Shown here: positions 47,855-54,743 of the stretch, in pieces | Layout: each line of letters begins with the position of its first letter | Position numbering within the stretch: position 1 is the stretch's first letter | Source of the DNA: Blautia hansenii DSM 20583 | GTDB lineage: Bacteria > Bacillota > Clostridia > Lachnospirales > Lachnospiraceae | Reading direction: 5' to 3' | Length of the DNA: 64,000 nt | Assembly (NCBI RefSeq): GCF_002222595.2 | Contig: NZ_CP022413.2 | Coordinates: 1,752,001-1,816,000, forward strand | Program-made: the position numbers and the translations under genes | The notes under the pieces: generated by a model | Seen by the model: the letters and a program-made list of their open reading frames with translations, nothing else | What the model was told of the DNA's origin: nothing | Databases searched by the model: none

Positions 47855-48562
47855 ATGGAATTTGAAAAAATAAGTTCGCCATCTCTTCGGGAACTTTTTG
47901 TAGACCAGTTAGAAAATATGATTTTGTCAGGAAAATTAAAAATCGGCGAAAAGCTTCCTCCCGAACGCCAGCTTGCTCAGATGATGCAGGTCAGCCGTGC
48001 CGTGGTAAACAGCGGAATTGCGGAGCTGGAAAAAAAGGGTTTTTTAATTGTAAAACCCCGAAGCGGAACTTTTGTTGCCGACTATCGCAGGAAAGGTACG
48101 GTAGAAACCTTAGTTGCCATTATGAAATATAATGGAGGCCGTATTCGCAGAGAGGAAATCCGTTCGATTTTAGAAGTGCGTATTGCTCTTGACACGCTAA
48201 TCGCCAGACTGAGTATTCCCATGATTACCGATGAGGAAATTCAGGTACTTTTTGAAAAAGTAGAAGCCATTCAAAATACTGCAAGCGTTCAGGAAGCCAT
48301 TGAAGCTGCTTTTGCCTTTCAGCATGAATTTGCCCTGTCCTCCAAAAATACTTTGATACCTCTGATTTTTCAGTCTTTTCATGCCCCTATCTTTACCATG
48401 TGGGAGCGCTTCTGTGAACTGTATGGTGTGGAAATGCTCTATAACCGCAATTATACCATGTGGACTTATATAAAAAACCGAGATACACAGGGAGCGGTGG
48501 ATTGGATTGAGCATTCTCTGAAGCAATGTATTGACGGGGATACGCAGATTTATTTTGATTAG
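47855..48562 (+). CDS. FadR-type GntR-family regulator
   Basis: The 235-residue protein has a GntR winged helix (GEKLPPERQLAQMMQVSRAVV, then SGTFVADY) and an FCD-type all-helical ligand domain (ILEVRIALDTLIARL, AFQHEFALSSKN). FadR-type regulators bind TGGTN3ACCA-like palindromes and often sense organic acids. Two such sites flank the promoter of the hypB operon 5 kb away, and this gene converges on the last gene of that operon. Regulation of that operon is my inference. Confidence 0.92.
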   Translation: MEFEKISSPSLRELFVDQLENMILSGKLKIGEKLPPERQLAQMMQVSRAVVNSGIAELEKKGFLIVKPRSGTFVADYRRKGTVETLVAIMKYNGGRIRREEIRSILEVRIALDTLIARLSIPMITDEEIQVLFEKVEAIQNTASVQEAIEAAFAFQHEFALSSKNTLIPLIFQSFHAPIFTMWERFCELYGVEMLYNRNYTMWTYIKNRDTQGAVDWIEHSLKQCIDGDTQIYFD

Positions 48563-48564
48563 AA

Positions 48565-48630
48565 AAAAACTGCTGTATAGAACAGCTATTGAACTATCAA
48601 TAACTGCTCATACAACAGTTTTTCTTTTTT
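48565..48630. terminator. Bidirectional terminator between GntR and DUF5692 genes
   Basis: AAAAACTGCTGTAT pairs with ATACAACAGTTTTT with one wobble, enclosing a second stem CAGCTATTGA/TCAATAACTG. A T-tract TTTTTCTTTTTT follows on the plus strand. Confidence 0.85.
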
Positions 48631-49669
48631 ATCTCTCTGCTCTTTCCATAGCCAGCTTAAAGTCTTTCTGGTCTGTGAAAATCTCATGTGTATATGGATT
48701 TTTCTTCTGCTGTTTTGCACGTTTGATAATCATTGCCATACATGCAATATTGGCAATCAGCGCAATAACCGCTACCACCCCCTGCATAGTGGGATTTGCT
48801 ACGGTTGGTCTTGTGGCAGCATCCATAAATCCGTCTGCATACAATACCGGTATAGTGGTAAATCTGCTGGCATCCTGAAACAGCGGAAATACCTGTGCAA
48901 ACATACACCATAAAGCCAAAGTATTTGCTCTGTTCTGTATCCAGCCGCCTTTATTCCAAAGGGCATTGGCAACTGTCGGAGCTAAAAGAAGCGCCAGTCC
49001 GCAGTACCATGCGTGTGTAGGCAGATTGTTATAAGTATATTCAAAGTTCCATAAATCATAAGCCAGAATAAAACACCATGTCATATCCGGCCACAGCATA
49101 TCTTTTTTATCCTTGGAAACATAAATCCCCAGCCAGCCTGTCATACAGAAAATATTGATTAAGCCGGAAATACCGTTTACCCAGTTCCACCAGCCTCCGT
49201 ACAGCCATACGTTTTCAGATGACAGCCACCAGCGGTCTCCGTATTCTGCCATTGCCATCATACCTCTGATACCGGACTCAAAATCACTGACTACTGCAAT
49301 TAAAATGTTAATTGCCACAATGAGAAAAGGAAACAGCTTAAACCATTCTTTTTTTCCAATTCCCCATTTGTATTTAATCATCATAAAGCCGATACATCCC
49401 GCTGTTGCCGCATAGAGCTTCGCATAATGGAACCAGCTTGTCATGTGCAGATAAGTCTGATTATGAAGCGCCCAATCTGCGCCCATGGCTGCTCCTACAT
49501 AAATTGCCACAAAATATACGGTCAAGACCGCAGGTAAAATTAAGAAACAGAAAATTCCTCCTGTTTTGCTTCTTCTTGCCAGCTCATTCATGAGAATAAG
49601 CCCCGCAAATACCAAAATCCAGCCTAACAGCTGCCACATGGTGTTATCTCCGTAAATCTGAAATAACAT
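48629..49669 (-). CDS. DUF5692 multi-pass membrane protein
   Basis: The 346-residue protein has about nine or ten hydrophobic segments, several of them rich in Trp, His and Tyr (YLHMTSWFHYAKLYAATAG, WYGGWWNWVNG-like LYGGWWNWVNGISGLIN, NNLPTHAWYCGLALLLAP). I match it to DUF5692, a family without known function. It follows hypA by 34 bases and a short hairpin, and is the last gene of the hypB operon. The conserved histidines could be metal or heme ligands, which is speculation. Confidence 0.85.
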   Translation of the reverse strand: MLFQIYGDNTMWQLLGWILVFAGLILMNELARRSKTGGIFCFLILPAVLTVYFVAIYVGAAMGADWALHNQTYLHMTSWFHYAKLYAATAGCIGFMMIKYKWGIGKKEWFKLFPFLIVAINILIAVVSDFESGIRGMMAMAEYGDRWWLSSENVWLYGGWWNWVNGISGLINIFCMTGWLGIYVSKDKKDMLWPDMTWCFILAYDLWNFEYTYNNLPTHAWYCGLALLLAPTVANALWNKGGWIQNRANTLALWCMFAQVFPLFQDASRFTTIPVLYADGFMDAATRPTVANPTMQGVVAVIALIANIACMAMIIKRAKQQKKNPYTHEIFTDQKDFKLAMERAER

Positions 49670-49690
49670 AAAATCCCTTCCTTTCTCTTT

Positions 49691-49714
49691 CTGCCTGCAT
49701 TTTTCAGCAGGCAG
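49691..49714 (-). terminator. Short hairpin between hypA and the DUF5692 gene
   Basis: CTGCCTGC (49691-49698) and GCAGGCAG (49707-49714) pair around an 8-base loop that includes the hypA stop codon. Without a U-tract it may only reduce expression of the DUF5692 gene downstream. Confidence 0.45.
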
Positions 49715-50048
49715 TTATCTCTTTAATATTAAACTCATTTCCGGCTGCAAGATATGTATGTTCACTTTTGCAATAGGGACAGATTTTTCCAAATTCTGTT
49801 GTAGAATAAGTCTGTTTACAATCCTCGCAAAAGGTCACTGCCGGAATTTGTTCCACAGTAAGTGATGCTCCCTTTAGAAGCTCTGTTCTGTCTGACGCCC
49901 ACCGCCAACAGCTTTGCAGATAATCTTCCAAAACTCCGGAAACTTCCCCGACTTCCAAAGTCACCCCCGCAATCTGCTTTAAATGGTTTTCTTCCCCCAC
50001 TTCTTTTAAGCTGTCAATAATATGAAAGACAATTCCCAGCTCGTGCAT
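49704..50048 (-). CDS. hypA: Nickel metallochaperone HypA
   Basis: The 114-residue protein starts MHELGIVFHI, with the conserved His2-Glu3 nickel site, and has a zinc loop with two CxxC motifs (FCEDCKQTY and ICPYCKSEH). HypA delivers nickel, with HypB, to [NiFe] hydrogenase or other nickel enzymes. No hypCDEF and no [NiFe] hydrogenase gene is in the window. The gene lies 3 bases after the large oxidoreductase gene. Confidence 0.95.
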   Translation of the reverse strand: MHELGIVFHIIDSLKEVGEENHLKQIAGVTLEVGEVSGVLEDYLQSCWRWASDRTELLKGASLTVEQIPAVTFCEDCKQTYSTTEFGKICPYCKSEHTYLAAGNEFNIKEITAC

Positions 50049-50051
50049 CCT

Positions 50052-52757
50052 CTATTTCTCCTTTTTTCCAAAACGGATTTTCATTTCCCTCTTAAATGCG
50101 TAAGGAAGAATGACCTTCATCTTATCCTCTGATTTGTGCATGGTACTGCATTCTGGATGCTCTCGATACAGATGAATGGCATCAAACTCACATTTTGTAG
50201 TACAAACACCGCAGCCGATACATTTGTTTTCATCTACAACGGAAGCTCCGCATCCCAGACAGCGTGCTGTTTCTTTTTTCACCTGTTCTTCTGTAAAGGC
50301 TTCTTTTGCATCTCTAAAGGATTTATGAGCATCAATGTCTTTTCTCACACCCGGTATCTGGCGGGAAGAATTATCGTATTCCTCTATTTGAATATTGCTC
50401 TTGTCAAGCTCAATAAACTGACGTCTGTTTCTTCCGATTGTCAAACTGCTGTGCGGCTGCACAAAACGATGAATGGAAATTGCACCCTCTTTTCCTGCTG
50501 CAATGGCATCAATGGCAAATTTCGGTCCTGTGTAAACGTCACCGCCTACAAAGATATCCGGTTCTGCTGTCTGATACGTTACTTTATCTGCCACCGCACC
50601 GTTTCCTCTTCCTAATTCAACCTTTGAGCCTTCTAATAAATTACCCCAGACAATGCTCTGTCCGATACTTAAAAAGACTCTTTCACAAGGAACGGTCATG
50701 GTTACGGCTTCATCAAATTTCGGTGCAAAGCGTTTGTTTTCATCAAAGACAGAAAGACATTTCTTAAATACAATTCCTTTGACTTTTCCGTTTTCTGTAA
50801 GGATTTCCTTCGGTCCCCAGCCACAGTTCAGAGTGATGCCTTCTTCCTGTGCCTCTGTGATTTCCTCTTCTGATGCAGGCATAATCTCTCTGCTTTCCAG
50901 ACAGAACATGGAAACCTCAGATGCTCCGCAGCGGCTTGCAGTTCTCGCCACGTCAATGGCTACGTTTCCGCCTCCTACGACTACGGTACGTCCTTCTACC
51001 GGATAATTCTGATTGTCACCTACTGTACGAAGGAAATCTACGGCAGTCATAACACCTTCTGCATCTTCTCCTTGGATATTGGCTTTTCTTCCTCCCTGAC
51101 ATCCGATTGCAAGATAAAAGGCTTTATAGCCCTGTTTACGCAGTTCCTCTAAGGTAATATCTTTTCCTACTTCAATACCGCATTTAATTTCCACACCCAT
51201 CTGGCGCATCACATCAATTTCTGCCTCTACCACATCTTTTTCCAGTTTAAAAGAAGGTATTCCGTAAACCAGCATACCGCCCGGCTTTTCATTCTTTTCA
51301 AAAACAGTAGGCTTATAACCTTTTTCTGCAAGATAAAAGGCACAACTAAGTCCTGCCGGACCACCGCCTATAATGGCAATCTTCTCTTCAAATAATCTGC
51401 CTGTGGTAGGCGGAATAATCGGCGGAATATAACGGTTTTCTGCTGTCAAATCCTGCTTTGCAATGAATTTCTTTACTTCGTCAATGGCAACCGCCTGATC
51501 AATGGTTCCTCTTGTGCAGGCATCTTCACATCTGCGGTTACAGATATGTCCGCATACTGCCGGAAACGGATTTTCTTTTTTAATCAAAGCCAGCGCTTCT
51601 CTGTATTTGCCCTGTGCGGCTTTTTTCAAATAGCCCTGTACTGCAATATGCGCAGGACAGGCTGTTTTACATGGCGCTGTACCGGTGTCATAGCAGTTAA
51701 TCCGATTGTTATCCCGATAATCTTCATCCCATTTTTCCGGTCCCCACTTCACGGCATCCGGAAGCTCATGCTTCGGGTATTCGATTGGTCCATCTTTTGT
51801 ACAGAGCTTCTGTCCCAGCTTGACCGCTCCTGCCGGACAATATTCCACGCATCTGCCGCAGGCAACACAATTTTCTGTCTTTACGTGAGCAACATAAGCA
51901 GACCTTGACATATTCGGCGTATTAAACAGCTGGGAAGTACGTAGTGCATAGCATACATTGACATTACAGTTGCAGATGGCAAAAATTTTATTTTTTCCGT
52001 CAATATTGGTAATCTGATGTACAAAGCCATTATCCTCAGCCTTTTTCAAAATATCCAGCACTTCCTCATAAGTGATATAGCGTCCGCCCTTTTGTGTTTC
52101 TACTACGTAATCTGCCATATCCCCCACTGCAATACACCAATCCTCCGGGTCATCTGCACAGCCTTCCTCATAGGTCTGTCTTGACAATCTGCAAGAACAC
52201 GGACTTGCCGCATATTTTCCTTCATATTTTTTCAGCCAGTGAGAAATATGCTCAATGTCAATGGACTGATTTTCCATTTCAATGGCTTTTTCTACCGGAA
52301 TAACGTGCATACCGATACCGGCTCCTCCCGGCGGCACCATTGGTGTTACTTTTTCTAAAGGCAGTCTTGACATCCTTTCAAAAAATCTGCCAAGTTCCGG
52401 ATGTTCCTCAAGCTGTTTGCGGTTCATATTCGTAAATTCTGCACTGCCAGGCACAAACATAGGAAGTACATATTGTTTTTCTCTTTTAGGATTTTCCCAG
52501 TTATATTCCAAAAGCCCTACAATACTCATTTCTTCCAAAAGTTTTTCCAGTTCTTTTTCTTCTTTACCCGTAGCTTTTAAAATCTGAGAAAATGTCATAG
52601 GCTTACGCACCTTCATTTTCAGCGCCACTTCTGCCATTTCATCTGTTACAACGCATGCTAATCCCCAGTATTCTGGATCATCTACGGTCACCTTATGTCC
52701 GATACGATCTGTAATTTTCTGTCCCAGCTTTAAAATTAATTCTCTTTTTTCTGCCAT
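50052..52757 (-). CDS. Large FAD- and Fe-S-containing oxidoreductase with GltD-like core
   Basis: The 901-residue protein begins with a winged-helix-like region (1-105, MTFSQILKATGKEEKELEKLL). Next comes an unusual cysteine cluster (C187, C189, C200, C208, C262, C264, C269), then a [4Fe-4S] ferredoxin motif CVACGRCVEYCP near 297. A GltD-like N-terminal Fe-S part follows (CKTACPAHI, CGHICNRRCEDAC near 363-414), then FAD loop AIIGGGPAGLSCAFY near 461 and NAD(P)H loop VVVGGGNVAIDVA near 592. A last ferredoxin motif CIGCGVCTTKCEFDAI lies near 847. It should pass electrons between NAD(P)H and ferredoxin-type partners. It lies between hypB and hypA; the partner is unknown. Confidence 0.85.
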   Translation of the reverse strand: MAEKRELILKLGQKITDRIGHKVTVDDPEYWGLACVVTDEMAEVALKMKVRKPMTFSQILKATGKEEKELEKLLEEMSIVGLLEYNWENPKREKQYVLPMFVPGSAEFTNMNRKQLEEHPELGRFFERMSRLPLEKVTPMVPPGGAGIGMHVIPVEKAIEMENQSIDIEHISHWLKKYEGKYAASPCSCRLSRQTYEEGCADDPEDWCIAVGDMADYVVETQKGGRYITYEEVLDILKKAEDNGFVHQITNIDGKNKIFAICNCNVNVCYALRTSQLFNTPNMSRSAYVAHVKTENCVACGRCVEYCPAGAVKLGQKLCTKDGPIEYPKHELPDAVKWGPEKWDEDYRDNNRINCYDTGTAPCKTACPAHIAVQGYLKKAAQGKYREALALIKKENPFPAVCGHICNRRCEDACTRGTIDQAVAIDEVKKFIAKQDLTAENRYIPPIIPPTTGRLFEEKIAIIGGGPAGLSCAFYLAEKGYKPTVFEKNEKPGGMLVYGIPSFKLEKDVVEAEIDVMRQMGVEIKCGIEVGKDITLEELRKQGYKAFYLAIGCQGGRKANIQGEDAEGVMTAVDFLRTVGDNQNYPVEGRTVVVGGGNVAIDVARTASRCGASEVSMFCLESREIMPASEEEITEAQEEGITLNCGWGPKEILTENGKVKGIVFKKCLSVFDENKRFAPKFDEAVTMTVPCERVFLSIGQSIVWGNLLEGSKVELGRGNGAVADKVTYQTAEPDIFVGGDVYTGPKFAIDAIAAGKEGAISIHRFVQPHSSLTIGRNRRQFIELDKSNIQIEEYDNSSRQIPGVRKDIDAHKSFRDAKEAFTEEQVKKETARCLGCGASVVDENKCIGCGVCTTKCEFDAIHLYREHPECSTMHKSEDKMKVILPYAFKREMKIRFGKKEK

Positions 52758-52779
52758 ACGTGACTCTCCCTTTCTGTTT

Positions 52780-53448
52780 CTACTCTTTCCAATGCTTTAC
52801 TTCATCTAAAAGCCACTCAAACCACTGCTGCATCCCTTCCCCTGTCTTTGCACTAATAGGAATAATTTTTGCTTTTGGATTACGCATCAAAATATTTTTC
52901 TTACACGCCTCCATATCAAAGTCAAAATACGGAATTACGTCTACTTTGTTAATAAGAACTACATCGCACACGGAAAACATAAGCGGGTATTTCAACGGTT
53001 TATCATGGCCTTCCGGTACACTTAAAATCATGGCATTTTTTACTGCCCCTGTGTCAAACTCTGCAGGACAAACTAAATTTCCCACATTTTCCAAAATTGC
53101 CAAATCCAGTTCATCTGTCTCAAGACCTTCCAGCCCCTGAGCTGTCATGCCGGCATCCAAATGACACATTCCTCCCGTATGGAGCTGAATGGTTTTTACT
53201 CCCAAATCAGATATTGTTTTTGCATCCACGTCAGAGTCAATATCTGCCTCCATAACCCCAATGCGAAGCTCCCCTTTTAAAGCTTTAATGGTTCCTGTAA
53301 GGGTTGTAGTTTTTCCTGAACCGGGAGAAGACATTAGGTTTAATAGGAATAACTTTTTCTCCTTCAACTGCTTGCGAAGCTCATCGGCACGTTTTTCATT
53401 GCCGGAAAATACACTTTTTTTAATTTCCAGAACTTTGAATTTGTCCAT
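52780..53448 (-). CDS. hypB: GTP-dependent nickel-insertion protein HypB
   Basis: The 222-residue GTPase has the P-loop LMSSPGSGKTTTL near residue 42, a metal-site region LHTGGMCHLDAGM with cysteine and histidines, and the guanine motif NKVD. HypB works with HypA to load nickel. It has no N-terminal histidine-rich store. GGAGG precedes the ATG. It is the first gene of the operon with a perfect consensus promoter. Confidence 0.95.
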   Translation of the reverse strand: MDKFKVLEIKKSVFSGNEKRADELRKQLKEKKLFLLNLMSSPGSGKTTTLTGTIKALKGELRIGVMEADIDSDVDAKTISDLGVKTIQLHTGGMCHLDAGMTAQGLEGLETDELDLAILENVGNLVCPAEFDTGAVKNAMILSVPEGHDKPLKYPLMFSVCDVVLINKVDVIPYFDFDMEACKKNILMRNPKAKIIPISAKTGEGMQQWFEWLLDEVKHWKE

Positions 53449-53465
53449 TGCCCTTCCTCCGTTCT

Positions 53466-53482
53466 AATTGGTTGTACCAATT
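53466..53482. promoter_or_regulatory. Proximal GntR-type operator of the hypB operon
   Basis: AATTGGTTGTACCAATT is a perfect palindrome (arms AATTGG/CCAATT, five-base centre) containing TGGTTGTACCA, the pattern bound by FadR/PdhR/LldR regulators. It lies about 10-26 bases after the expected transcription start. Confidence 0.72.
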
Positions 53483-53498
53483 TTGTTATTTTATCGAC

Positions 53499-53527
53499 AT
53501 TATATTATTATGACGATTTTTTGTCAA
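53499..53527 (-). promoter_or_regulatory. Consensus promoter of the hypB operon
   Basis: On the minus strand, TTGACA (53522-53527) and TATAAT (53499-53504) are exactly 17 bases apart, a perfect sigma-70 promoter. It is flanked by two TGGTN3ACCA sites, so strong expression appears to be held under repression. Confidence 0.85.
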
Positions 53528-53607
53528 TATAACTTCTGTTTTTCATATATTTTATCCTATTTTTCTCTGTTTTCCCCTTCGTTTATGTCAATTTTTGTAT
53601 TTGGTAT

Positions 53608-53622
53608 CTGGTATAACCAATT
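53608..53622. promoter_or_regulatory. Distal GntR-type operator of the hypB operon
   Basis: TGGTATAACCA (53609-53619) repeats the TGGTN3ACCA pattern with a further ATT on one side. It is 140 bases from the proximal site, centre to centre, which would allow a repression loop. Confidence 0.6.
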
Positions 53623-53685: not shown

Positions 53686-54102
53686 TTAACTGTTCTTAAC
53701 AAACTCAGCTCCGCATTTGGGGCATCTTACACTAATCTTACCTTTTCCCTTTGGAATACGGATTTTCTGTTTGCACTGGGGACATGTATAAATATGAAAG
53801 TCCTTTCTCTGCTGCTGTATGTATTTTGTTTTCCCGAAAAATCTTCGTACCTTATTTTCCAACGCCAGATATTTTTGATTTTCCGCATATCGCTTTGAAA
53901 TATTTCTGGAAAACACACGGAAATAAATAAGAATAACAAGTAAAAATTCCCATGAAGTAAGCAACACGCTAAAGTATACATTATCCACGAAAATATCCAA
54001 CATGGCACAGACCAGAAAAACAATCAGCATCGCCTGATTTAAACGGTCACTGCCATACCTTCCATACATAAATCGCTGAAACGCTTCTCTTATTTTATTC
54101 AT
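53686..54102 (-). CDS. Zinc-ribbon membrane protein
   Basis: The 138-residue protein has two hydrophobic helices (about 22-38 and 42-60), a basic linker and a C-terminal zinc ribbon with TCPQCKQKIRIP and RCPKCGAEF. The start at the ATG at 54102 gives an eight-base overlap with the flavodoxin gene. The pair is probably one operon. Function unknown. Confidence 0.8.
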   Translation of the reverse strand: MNKIREAFQRFMYGRYGSDRLNQAMLIVFLVCAMLDIFVDNVYFSVLLTSWEFLLVILIYFRVFSRNISKRYAENQKYLALENKVRRFFGKTKYIQQQRKDFHIYTCPQCKQKIRIPKGKGKISVRCPKCGAEFVKNS

Positions 54103-54628
54103 ACTGCAATTCTTCCTTCCTAATATCTTCAAATACCTTTTGTACAAAGGCTTTTGCGCCTTCTAAATCCTGCGTGTCAGGATGAAGCATTGCCATGTCA
54201 AAATTACGGAGCATAGCATTTATCATCTTCGTATTTTCCGGTGTCTTCATGCTGAGATATTTCTCACGCACAGAAATCGGCATCTTTCCCTGACAGATAT
54301 AAGCGCCCAGATATTCGTTGTCATCCTCAATAAAAACACGTATGTTTTCTTCGATTTTTTTATAATATTCCAAATCATTTCCCATGCCGCAGGTACCGAA
54401 TAATGCAATCTTCTTTCCCTGAAGGCTGCCCAGATAATCCAACACCTCCACGCTGGCACTTCCTCTGTCCGTCCAAAATCCTATAAAATATATGTCTCCC
54501 ATTTCATAATCTGTCTGTCCTTCTAAAGGTGCAATATCCTTACACTGTCCGGGAACAGCCTCAAAAATTGCTTTTGCCAGCTTTTCTGTATTGCCGGTTC
54601 TGCTCTTGTACAATACCTGCGTTTTCAT
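54095..54628 (-). CDS. Flavodoxin-family protein
   Basis: The 177-residue protein has the FMN phosphate-binding loop YKSRTGNTEKLA near residue 7 and the flavodoxin core IGFWTDRGSA and ALFGTCGMGND. The ATG at 54628 fits the ribosome site AAGGGA (8 bases upstream) better than the one at 54634. The C-terminal 50 residues (HPDTQDLEGAKAFV) are an extra helical part. It may carry electrons for a partner reductase; no partner is adjacent except the zinc-ribbon protein. Confidence 0.88.
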   Translation of the reverse strand: MKTQVLYKSRTGNTEKLAKAIFEAVPGQCKDIAPLEGQTDYEMGDIYFIGFWTDRGSASVEVLDYLGSLQGKKIALFGTCGMGNDLEYYKKIEENIRVFIEDDNEYLGAYICQGKMPISVREKYLSMKTPENTKMINAMLRNFDMAMLHPDTQDLEGAKAFVQKVFEDIRKEELQYE

Positions 54629-54743
54629 GTTCATCTTCCCTTCTATTGTTGTCATAATAGTATTTTATCACAAAACAATAGAAATAATATTTCTTAATTC
54701 TTAAAAACTCTAAACTCTCTATAAAGTTTTTCCTGCATACACT

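Follow-up and report, generated by a model that had tools for sequence, protein, structure and literature searches.

Which enzyme do the nickel chaperones HypA and HypB serve in a cell that has no [NiFe] hydrogenase? This question is raised by a gene cluster of Blautia hansenii DSM 20583 located in the window analysed here, a stretch of 64,000 nucleotides (contig NZ_CP022413.2, positions 1,752,001 to 1,816,000, forward strand). The cluster comprises the genes of HypB, of an Fe-S/FAD oxidoreductase of 901 amino acids (aa), of HypA and of a membrane protein of the DUF5692 family, faced by the gene of a GntR regulator. The oxidoreductase resembles the putative isoprene reductase IsrA and is the likely client of HypA and HypB. 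We propose, at about even chances, that the operon serves the anaerobic biohydrogenation of polyunsaturated fatty acids, in which DUF5692 would act as isomerase and the IsrA-like protein subsequently as nickel-assisted reductase. The module is real, conserved and regulated, and its family has been published but is uncharacterised.

Organisation of the locus

The features of the locus, with the basis of each assignment, are as follows:

52780..53448, minus strand: hypB, GTPase nickel chaperone, first gene of the predicted operon (TIGR00073)
50052..52757, minus strand: gene of the IsrA-like 901-aa Fe-S/FAD oxidoreductase (domains, and the same length and architecture as IsrA)
51951..52199, minus strand: stretch coding for cluster V, C187xC189, C208, H247, C262xC264, C269 (alignment)
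49704..50048, minus strand: hypA, nickel metallochaperone (PF01155)
48629..49669, minus strand: DUF5692, integral membrane protein (PF18948)
47855..48562, plus strand: convergent GntR/FCD (FadR-type) regulator (PF00392, PF07729)
53499..53527, minus strand: sigma-70 promoter TTGACA-17-TATAAT just 5' of hypB (12 of 12 consensus positions)
53469..53479, minus strand: predicted operator 1, TGGTNNNACCA inside AATTGGTACAACCAATT, 31 nt upstream of the hypB ATG
53609..53619, minus strand: predicted operator 2, TGGTNNNACCA, 140 bp upstream of operator 1
48572..48586, minus strand: terminator-like hairpin and T tract 3' of DUF5692 (consensus match only)

The cluster had been noticed in a preliminary description made from the letters of the window, and the observation was confirmed: hypB, the 901-codon oxidoreductase gene, hypA and the DUF5692 gene follow each other on the minus strand with intergenic gaps of 22, 3 and 34 bases. 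Due to the promoter 5' of hypB and the terminator-like hairpin 3' of DUF5692 the four genes are read as a single operon. No RNA family reached its gathering score between 46 and 56 kb of the window.

Client of HypA and HypB

The window genome, a single contig of 3.07 Mb, encodes one HypA, which scores 108.4 bits with PF01155 and lies above the cut-off; its HypB reaches 246 bits with TIGR00073 (cut-off 121.2). The preliminary description had seen no [NiFe] hydrogenase and had assigned the hydrogenase at 58-62 kb to the [FeFe] type. Both statements held, since the search of the window genome for the [NiFe] large subunit (PF00374) was empty and the [FeFe] trio was found. As to the other nickel enzymes that it had named, at least one Ni-dependent carbon monoxide dehydrogenase (Ni-CODH) and one LarA-like protein are present, and no urease alpha subunit was detected in the window genome. 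Three Prismane-family proteins are encoded, namely one Hcp, one Ni-CODH above the TIGR01702 cut-off and a third judged by its size; the LarA-like protein reaches the cut-off of none of the five LarA models listed. The cell thus has other uses for nickel, but no [NiFe] hydrogenase among them.

The distribution of the families was followed in one draw of 299 Lachnospiraceae genomes from 298 genera, in which IsrA was called at E values up to 1e-100. Only HypA matches at about E 1e-9 or stronger were kept, which reduced the HypA genomes from 123 (E 0.001) to 83, and a DUF5692 fragment of 31 positions in genome G401 was dropped, leaving 43 instead of 44 DUF5692 genomes; CODH stands outside these counts. 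IsrA was found in 62 genomes and the [NiFe] large subunit in 38. HypA is present in 61 of the 62 genomes with IsrA and lies within 6 kb of 64 of the 86 IsrA genes, and 81 of the 83 genomes with HypA carry IsrA or a [NiFe] hydrogenase. Among the genomes free of [NiFe] hydrogenase 46 possess both IsrA and HypA, one IsrA only, two HypA only and 212 neither, so that HypA occurs in 46/47 of those with IsrA versus 2/214 of those without. Furthermore, HypA accompanies IsrA in 19 of the 20 genomes that lack DUF5692 (10 of 11 among those free of [NiFe] hydrogenase), and the sole genome with DUF5692 and without IsrA has no HypA.

Because HypA tracks IsrA in genomes without [NiFe] hydrogenase, and also in those without DUF5692, the IsrA-like protein is the likely client of HypA and HypB, as far as gene distribution can tell. 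This agrees with two earlier suggestions, that the orphan pair serves a client other than [NiFe] hydrogenase and that the oxidoreductase may be this client. The third one, DUF5692 as the nickel client, is not favoured, since HypA accompanies IsrA also where DUF5692 is missing. Likewise, the absence of PF00374 and the co-occurrence of HypA with IsrA do not support a view of HypA and HypB as leftovers of a hydrogenase set.

Considering the Ni-CODH and the LarA-like protein encoded in the window genome, HypA and HypB could serve one of these instead, their proximity to isrA being due to chance or common regulation. This seems improbable in view of the close association of HypA with IsrA, and the examined Ni-CODH gene is itself flanked by two P-loop ATPase genes, one of which was scanned and resembles MinD below the cut-off; as a guess, these ATPases are CooC-like. 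A further alternative is that HypA and HypB insert another metal or act as GTP-dependent assembly factors for cluster V in a nickel-free enzyme. The IsrA authors indeed left nickel as a point to test, in the passages of PMC10134865 considered here, but the nickel motifs are intact: in the fetched loci the MHE start and two CxxC motifs are kept in 64 of 64 close relatives of HypA, and the GG-x-CH and NVGNL-x-C motifs (the CH...C of the G domain) in 51 of 51 close relatives of HypB. We therefore regard a nickel-free enzyme as rather unlikely and nickel in the IsrA-like protein as probable.

The IsrA-like oxidoreductase

According to its domain order (N-terminal domain of 270 aa, Fer4, DPD-domain II, FAD/NAD core, C-terminal Fer4) and its length of about 900 aa the window protein corresponds to the IsrA family. 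Cluster V, by which this family is recognised and whose six cysteines include two CxC motifs, is present as well. All 72 IsrA sequences collected here share its residues C187, C189, C208, C262, C264, C269 and H247 without exception. IsrA was described by Kronen 2023 as a putative isoprene reductase of Acetobacterium wieringae (901 aa, clade 9), which is induced by isoprene, a conjugated diene, and has four canonical [4Fe-4S] clusters in addition to cluster V, in which the authors suggested nickel (PMC10134865). The neighbours of isrA there encode two HypA, HypB and a ferredoxin, the genome has no [NiFe] hydrogenase, and HypA, HypB and DUF5692 were reported as neighbours of 988 IsrA homologues at frequencies of 0.73, 0.56 and 0.40, respectively (PMC10134865). 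Thus, the preliminary description, which had considered an undescribed nickel enzyme, has to be revised in so far as a publication of 2023 already covers the family and its association with hypA, hypB and DUF5692, whereas the function is indeed still putative.

The window protein shares with A. wieringae IsrA the 901 aa, the domain order, the two-CxC cluster V, the hypA and hypB neighbours and a genome without [NiFe] hydrogenase; this likeness is drawn from the published description of IsrA (VUZ27132.1). The window unit differs in having no adjacent 4Fe-4S ferredoxin, one HypA instead of two, and its own DUF5692 and GntR regulator with paired operators, and its substrate is probably a fatty acid rather than isoprene. 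The Fer4_20 and Pyr_redox_2 core resembles GltD, NfnB and dihydropyrimidine dehydrogenase (best PDB matches 9bov, 8oh5, 9n5u and NfnI), to which the window protein adds an N-terminal domain, about 290 residues long, that carries cluster V. When solved relatives of IsrA residues 1-290 were sought, the best stretch fell on the ferredoxin part in each of the 60 PDB rows listed out of 104. A model of residues 1-345 has a mean predicted local distance difference test score (pLDDT) of 69 and is poor across much of the cysteine region, and its structural matches span mainly residues 18-140.

An isoprene-reducing Acetobacterium was reported to reduce isoprene and butadiene, whereas ethene, propene and fumarate were not reduced (passages of PMC9765523), which fits a reductase that stops at the monoene. 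We consider it quite likely that IsrA is a conjugated-diene reductase.

More distant IsrA paralogues were observed in loci L134 (4053-11995) and L140 (7108-14785), with neighbours resembling double-cubane reductases as well as a CoA-dehydratase activase and a MinD/CooC-like ATPase; the first three were scanned in L134 only. Their different partner set perhaps indicates another substrate.

A homologue of a fatty acid isomerase as alternative partner of IsrA

A link to fatty acids emerged from loci of other families of the phylum, where IsrA and DUF5692 adjoin a FAD protein of 400-420 aa (seven loci in five genomes). A FAD protein of the same type adjoins DUF5692 in a genome whose DUF5692 is Paenibacillus-like, with no IsrA on the stretch, and matches PDB 2b9w over its full length with 234 bits. 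We take 2b9w, whose PDB name is "putative aminooxidase", to be the polyunsaturated fatty acid isomerase PAI of P. acnes (Cutibacterium acnes). Using the Paenibacillus-like protein as query, PAI homologues were detected in 11 of the 299 genomes, all of which carry IsrA and lack DUF5692; PAI is thus present in 11/20 genomes with IsrA and without DUF5692 versus 0/42 genomes with both (p 3e-7). One of the Lachnospiraceae homologues matches 2b9w with 482 bits, and the PAI gene lies at most about 3 kb from the IsrA gene in six of the 11 genomes. The window genome contains no PAI homologue at E 1e-20.

Since PAI and DUF5692 alternate as partners of IsrA, the simplest reading is that both supply it with the same type of product, a conjugated diene. 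PAI is a FAD enzyme and no sequence relation to DUF5692 was seen, although the same step is proposed for both. The IsrA sequences also appear to split by partner. In an illustrative tree of 77 sequences collected here, most of them chosen by DUF5692, a clade of nine sequences (support 1.0) holds the five IsrA of Lachnospiraceae PAI loci and is sister to a clade of 56 sequences from DUF5692 genomes (0.93).

Genes for acyl-ACP thioesterases occur near PAI in loci L154 and L156 and genes for AMP-binding ligases in L153 and L154; in L136 a thioesterase and an AMP-binding protein are encoded upstream of a further IsrA paralogue. In L153, L154, L156 and L157 PAI is followed consecutively by a CrtI/carotenoid-isomerase-like flavoprotein and a flavin reductase, with IsrA next to them in L153 and L154; the reductase of L154, the only one of the four scanned, has NAD, FAD and 2Fe-2S domains.

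The IsrA-like protein might instead reduce another conjugated polyene (terpenes, carotenoids, retinoids or plant phenolics), for which DUF5692 would be the isomerase or transporter, fatty acids then being the substrate of the PAI-linked relatives only. The CrtI-like protein of the PAI clusters would suit this explanation, as would the link of IsrA itself to isoprene and the terpenes suggested by its authors (PMC10134865). However, PAI and the acyl-ACP thioesterases encoded beside IsrA relatives speak for fatty acids, as does the oleate hydratase reported near an IsrA homologue in two Acetobacterium species (PMC10134865), and Roseburia inulinivorans, which carries the module, is reported to form vaccenate (see below). 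A different polyene as substrate is therefore considered unlikely and a fatty acid probable.

As a separate observation, a 330-370-aa IS481/IS3-like protein adjoins the PAI gene in eight loci (L017, L021-L026, L028). The copy of L017, the one that was scanned, does not reach the transposase cut-off; it could be a domesticated regulator.

DUF5692

The window DUF5692 was assigned with 476.8 bits to PF18948 (cut-off 27). Named DUF5692 loci were taken as the best 80 of 578 confirmed ones, many of them cut by contig ends; the nearest relatives among them are from Extibacter muris, [Ruminococcus] faecis, Blautia hansenii and Lachnospiraceae bins. In these 80 loci IsrA is found on the same stretch in 54 and all four genes in 40, the latter in seven different gene orders, as expected of genes held together by function. 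IsrA is present in 42 of the 43 DUF5692 genomes of the draw (expected 8.9, p 1e-34), where 24 of the 43 DUF5692 genes are located within 6 kb of IsrA and 19 are unlinked. Thus, a distribution in which the families occur apart in most genomes, which by the preliminary description would have refuted its reading, was not found among the 299 genomes.

The modelled structure (pLDDT 91.7) consists mostly of long helices, several of them strongly hydrophobic, which is consistent with a membrane protein. By sequence no solved relative was found at E 1.

The conserved residues were counted in 307 sequences, namely 53 with IsrA and without PAI, 28 with no IsrA in the vicinity and 226 database sequences. 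Of the 93 DUF5692 proteins extracted from loci 87 were placed in groups A-D and six (L129-L131, L137-L139) kept apart. Each of N28, E29, R32, W79, F80, K84, D195, W207, N208, Y211, Y213, W243, Q245 and R247 differs in no more than one of the 307 sequences; H219 is kept in all 307, D205 in 306, and H81 is changed in two. In the seven loci that combine IsrA, PAI and DUF5692, on the other hand, D205 and H219 are replaced throughout and H81 in five. These loci represent two sequence types and not seven independent losses, and the seventh, L028, was read from the alignment outside the group-based count. The loss of D205 and H219 beside PAI fits a catalytic activity that is given up where PAI is at hand. 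That DUF5692 is a double-bond isomerase appears to us possible at slightly less than even chances.

DUF5692 also occurs in Limosilactobacillus ingluviei, L. vaginalis and L. rudii, 67-69% identical to that of the window, without a full IsrA; the sole IsrA match of L. rudii has 30% identity across the flavin core. In total, 11 genomes behind named loci were searched for IsrA. The lactobacilli, in all three of those searched the same, suggest that DUF5692 probably has a useful activity of its own, upon which IsrA builds. Further listed hosts are Paenibacillus, Listeria, Cellulomonas and Cryobacterium.

Alternatively, DUF5692 could be a non-enzymatic membrane carrier or anchor that delivers a lipid to IsrA, as it is a membrane protein without known cofactor domain and can coexist with PAI. 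Such a role seems somewhat unlikely, given that DUF5692 is present in the three lactobacilli without IsrA and that more than 20 of its charged or polar residues are invariant in 78 sequences from several phyla.

Several variants of DUF5692 loci were noted. A distant paralogue (22.9 bits, Pfam cut-off 27) lies directly beside the DUF5692 gene in L018 (6692-7549, plus strand). In [Ruminococcus] faecis one stretch (L129, 1096-5808) holds a TetR gene, IsrA and a second DUF5692 (41% identical), and the window-type DUF5692 sits elsewhere in the genome. Two tandem hypB genes occur several kilobases from DUF5692 in L104 (5138-6480) and L110 (5119-6462), with no IsrA found on the stretch, and L151 has two adjacent hypB-like genes. 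The whole unit of GntR, hypB, isrA, hypA and DUF5692 was found in L031 (6342-12155), which according to its record is a 267-kb mobilizable plasmid of Subdoligranulum variabile, and may be transferable between gut bacteria.

Regulator and predicted operators

Relatives of the GntR regulator with more than 45% identity are encoded on 17 of the 54 IsrA-holding loci among the best 80 of 578. All 16 loci that carry the GntR gene have at least one TGGTNNNACCA-type match in the 220 bases preceding hypB (15 by the strict pattern), and 13 of them have the operator pair by the relaxed pattern; the 30 loci with no GntR gene on the stretch have none. The strict motif has a background of 0.9% of 220-base stretches, and the 16 loci are related, so that the operator shows conservation and not 16 independent events. 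In the window operator 1 lies about 20 bases past the -10 box.

The motif also precedes nine of 29 DUF5692 genes without nearby IsrA, seven times as a pair, including those of R. inulinivorans and [Ruminococcus] faecis. As it occurs in R. inulinivorans also 85 bases upstream of the distant hypB-isrA-hypA operon, the unlinked DUF5692 and IsrA genes share an operator there. The predicted operators thereby link the GntR protein with the operon as well as with DUF5692 genes located elsewhere. As a genome-wide marker the bare 11-base motif was rejected, with 46 sites versus 30 of the reversed control in the window genome and 53/57, 27/24 and 39/73 in genomes G299, G300 and G301; due to this lack of specificity only its position near these genes was used.

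With its FCD domain the regulator resembles FadR/PdhR-type GntR proteins, and TGGTNNNACCA is similar to the PdhR/FadR boxes. The regulator scores far below the named equivalogs listed (82.5 versus 330 bits for the PdhR model).

Upstream of the operon, outside the module, a flavodoxin (54095-54655, minus strand) scores above the cut-off of the model for BilS, the bilirubin-reduction flavodoxin, and adjoins a zinc-ribbon-like protein (53686-54147).

Proposed function

Anaerobic biohydrogenation of linoleic acid yields conjugated linoleic and vaccenic acids in the rumen and the gut. The conversion of linoleate to vaccenate has been reported for Roseburia hominis and R. inulinivorans, and the formation of hydroxy acids for R. 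intestinalis and R. faecis (PMC7524357 and PMC11723137, citing Devillard 2007 and McIntosh 2009). R. inulinivorans DSM 16841 carries IsrA and DUF5692. The linoleate isomerase activity of Butyrivibrio is membrane-associated (Kepler and Tove 1967, as cited in PMC13365329), and knock-out of bbi in Bifidobacterium breve was reported to lower the conversion to conjugated linoleic acid (CLA) from 92% to 0%, which complementation restored (PMC11812354). Both resemble the step proposed here in that CLA is formed from linoleate by a membrane-associated or single-gene isomerase; the passages on bbi name no protein family. In the open literature DUF5692 was met in one paper, Kronen 2023, and our searches gave none that connects DUF5692 or IsrA with linoleate biohydrogenation.

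In the proposed pathway linoleate would enter the membrane, where DUF5692 would move a double bond of the linoleate-type acid and form a conjugated diene by acid-base catalysis, with H81, D205 and H219 as candidate residues. HypA and HypB would load nickel into the IsrA-like protein, with cluster V as the most likely site. This protein would draw electrons from NAD(P)H and pass them via FAD and the [4Fe-4S] chain to the six-Cys/one-His cluster V, which would saturate one bond of the diene and stop at a trans monoene of the vaccenate type. The GntR/FCD protein would control the operon at the two operators, probably answering to a fatty acid or its thioester, and the cell would benefit from the removal of toxic unsaturated acids and from an electron sink. 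In its most specific form, a cofactor-free membrane linoleate isomerase and a new Ni-Fe-S reductase of conjugated dienoic acids that together convert linoleate to vaccenate in anaerobes of gut and rumen, encoded by this operon and its unlinked relatives within one GntR regulon, the proposal is tentative and less likely than not.

Several points weigh against it. A CLA reductase gene of Butyrivibrio was reportedly sequenced in 2007, and the reported vaccenate former R. hominis is not among the best 80 of 578 DUF5692 loci. The module's proteins are known here from genes and sequences, and the co-occurrence counts and p-values ignore phylogeny. Nine of the 20 genomes with IsrA and without DUF5692 lack PAI too, so that IsrA has no known isomerase partner there. 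PAI and DUF5692 are not simple alternatives everywhere, as they are neighbours in the seven loci of other families and in the Paenibacillus-like genome, whose DUF5692 keeps all conserved residues beside PAI. Fold comparison of DUF5692, with the 7-TM receptor/rhodopsin fold considered, gave only middling seven-helix matches and excluded no family, and DUF5692 is listed for many soil-type actinobacteria, in which a role in biohydrogenation is not obvious. Finally, the window HypA scores below the TIGR00100 cut-off.

Implications

The neighbourhood of IsrA itself was known (PMC10134865); new here are the co-occurrence counts, PAI as partner, the shared operators and the specific function proposed. 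If this function is true, the operon would supply candidates for a gut reaction of which the genetic basis is little known, and DUF5692 would gain its first testable function. An ene-reductase served by nickel chaperones would represent a new use of biological nickel and would explain why 46 of 299 Lachnospiraceae genomes possess HypA and IsrA but no [NiFe] hydrogenase.

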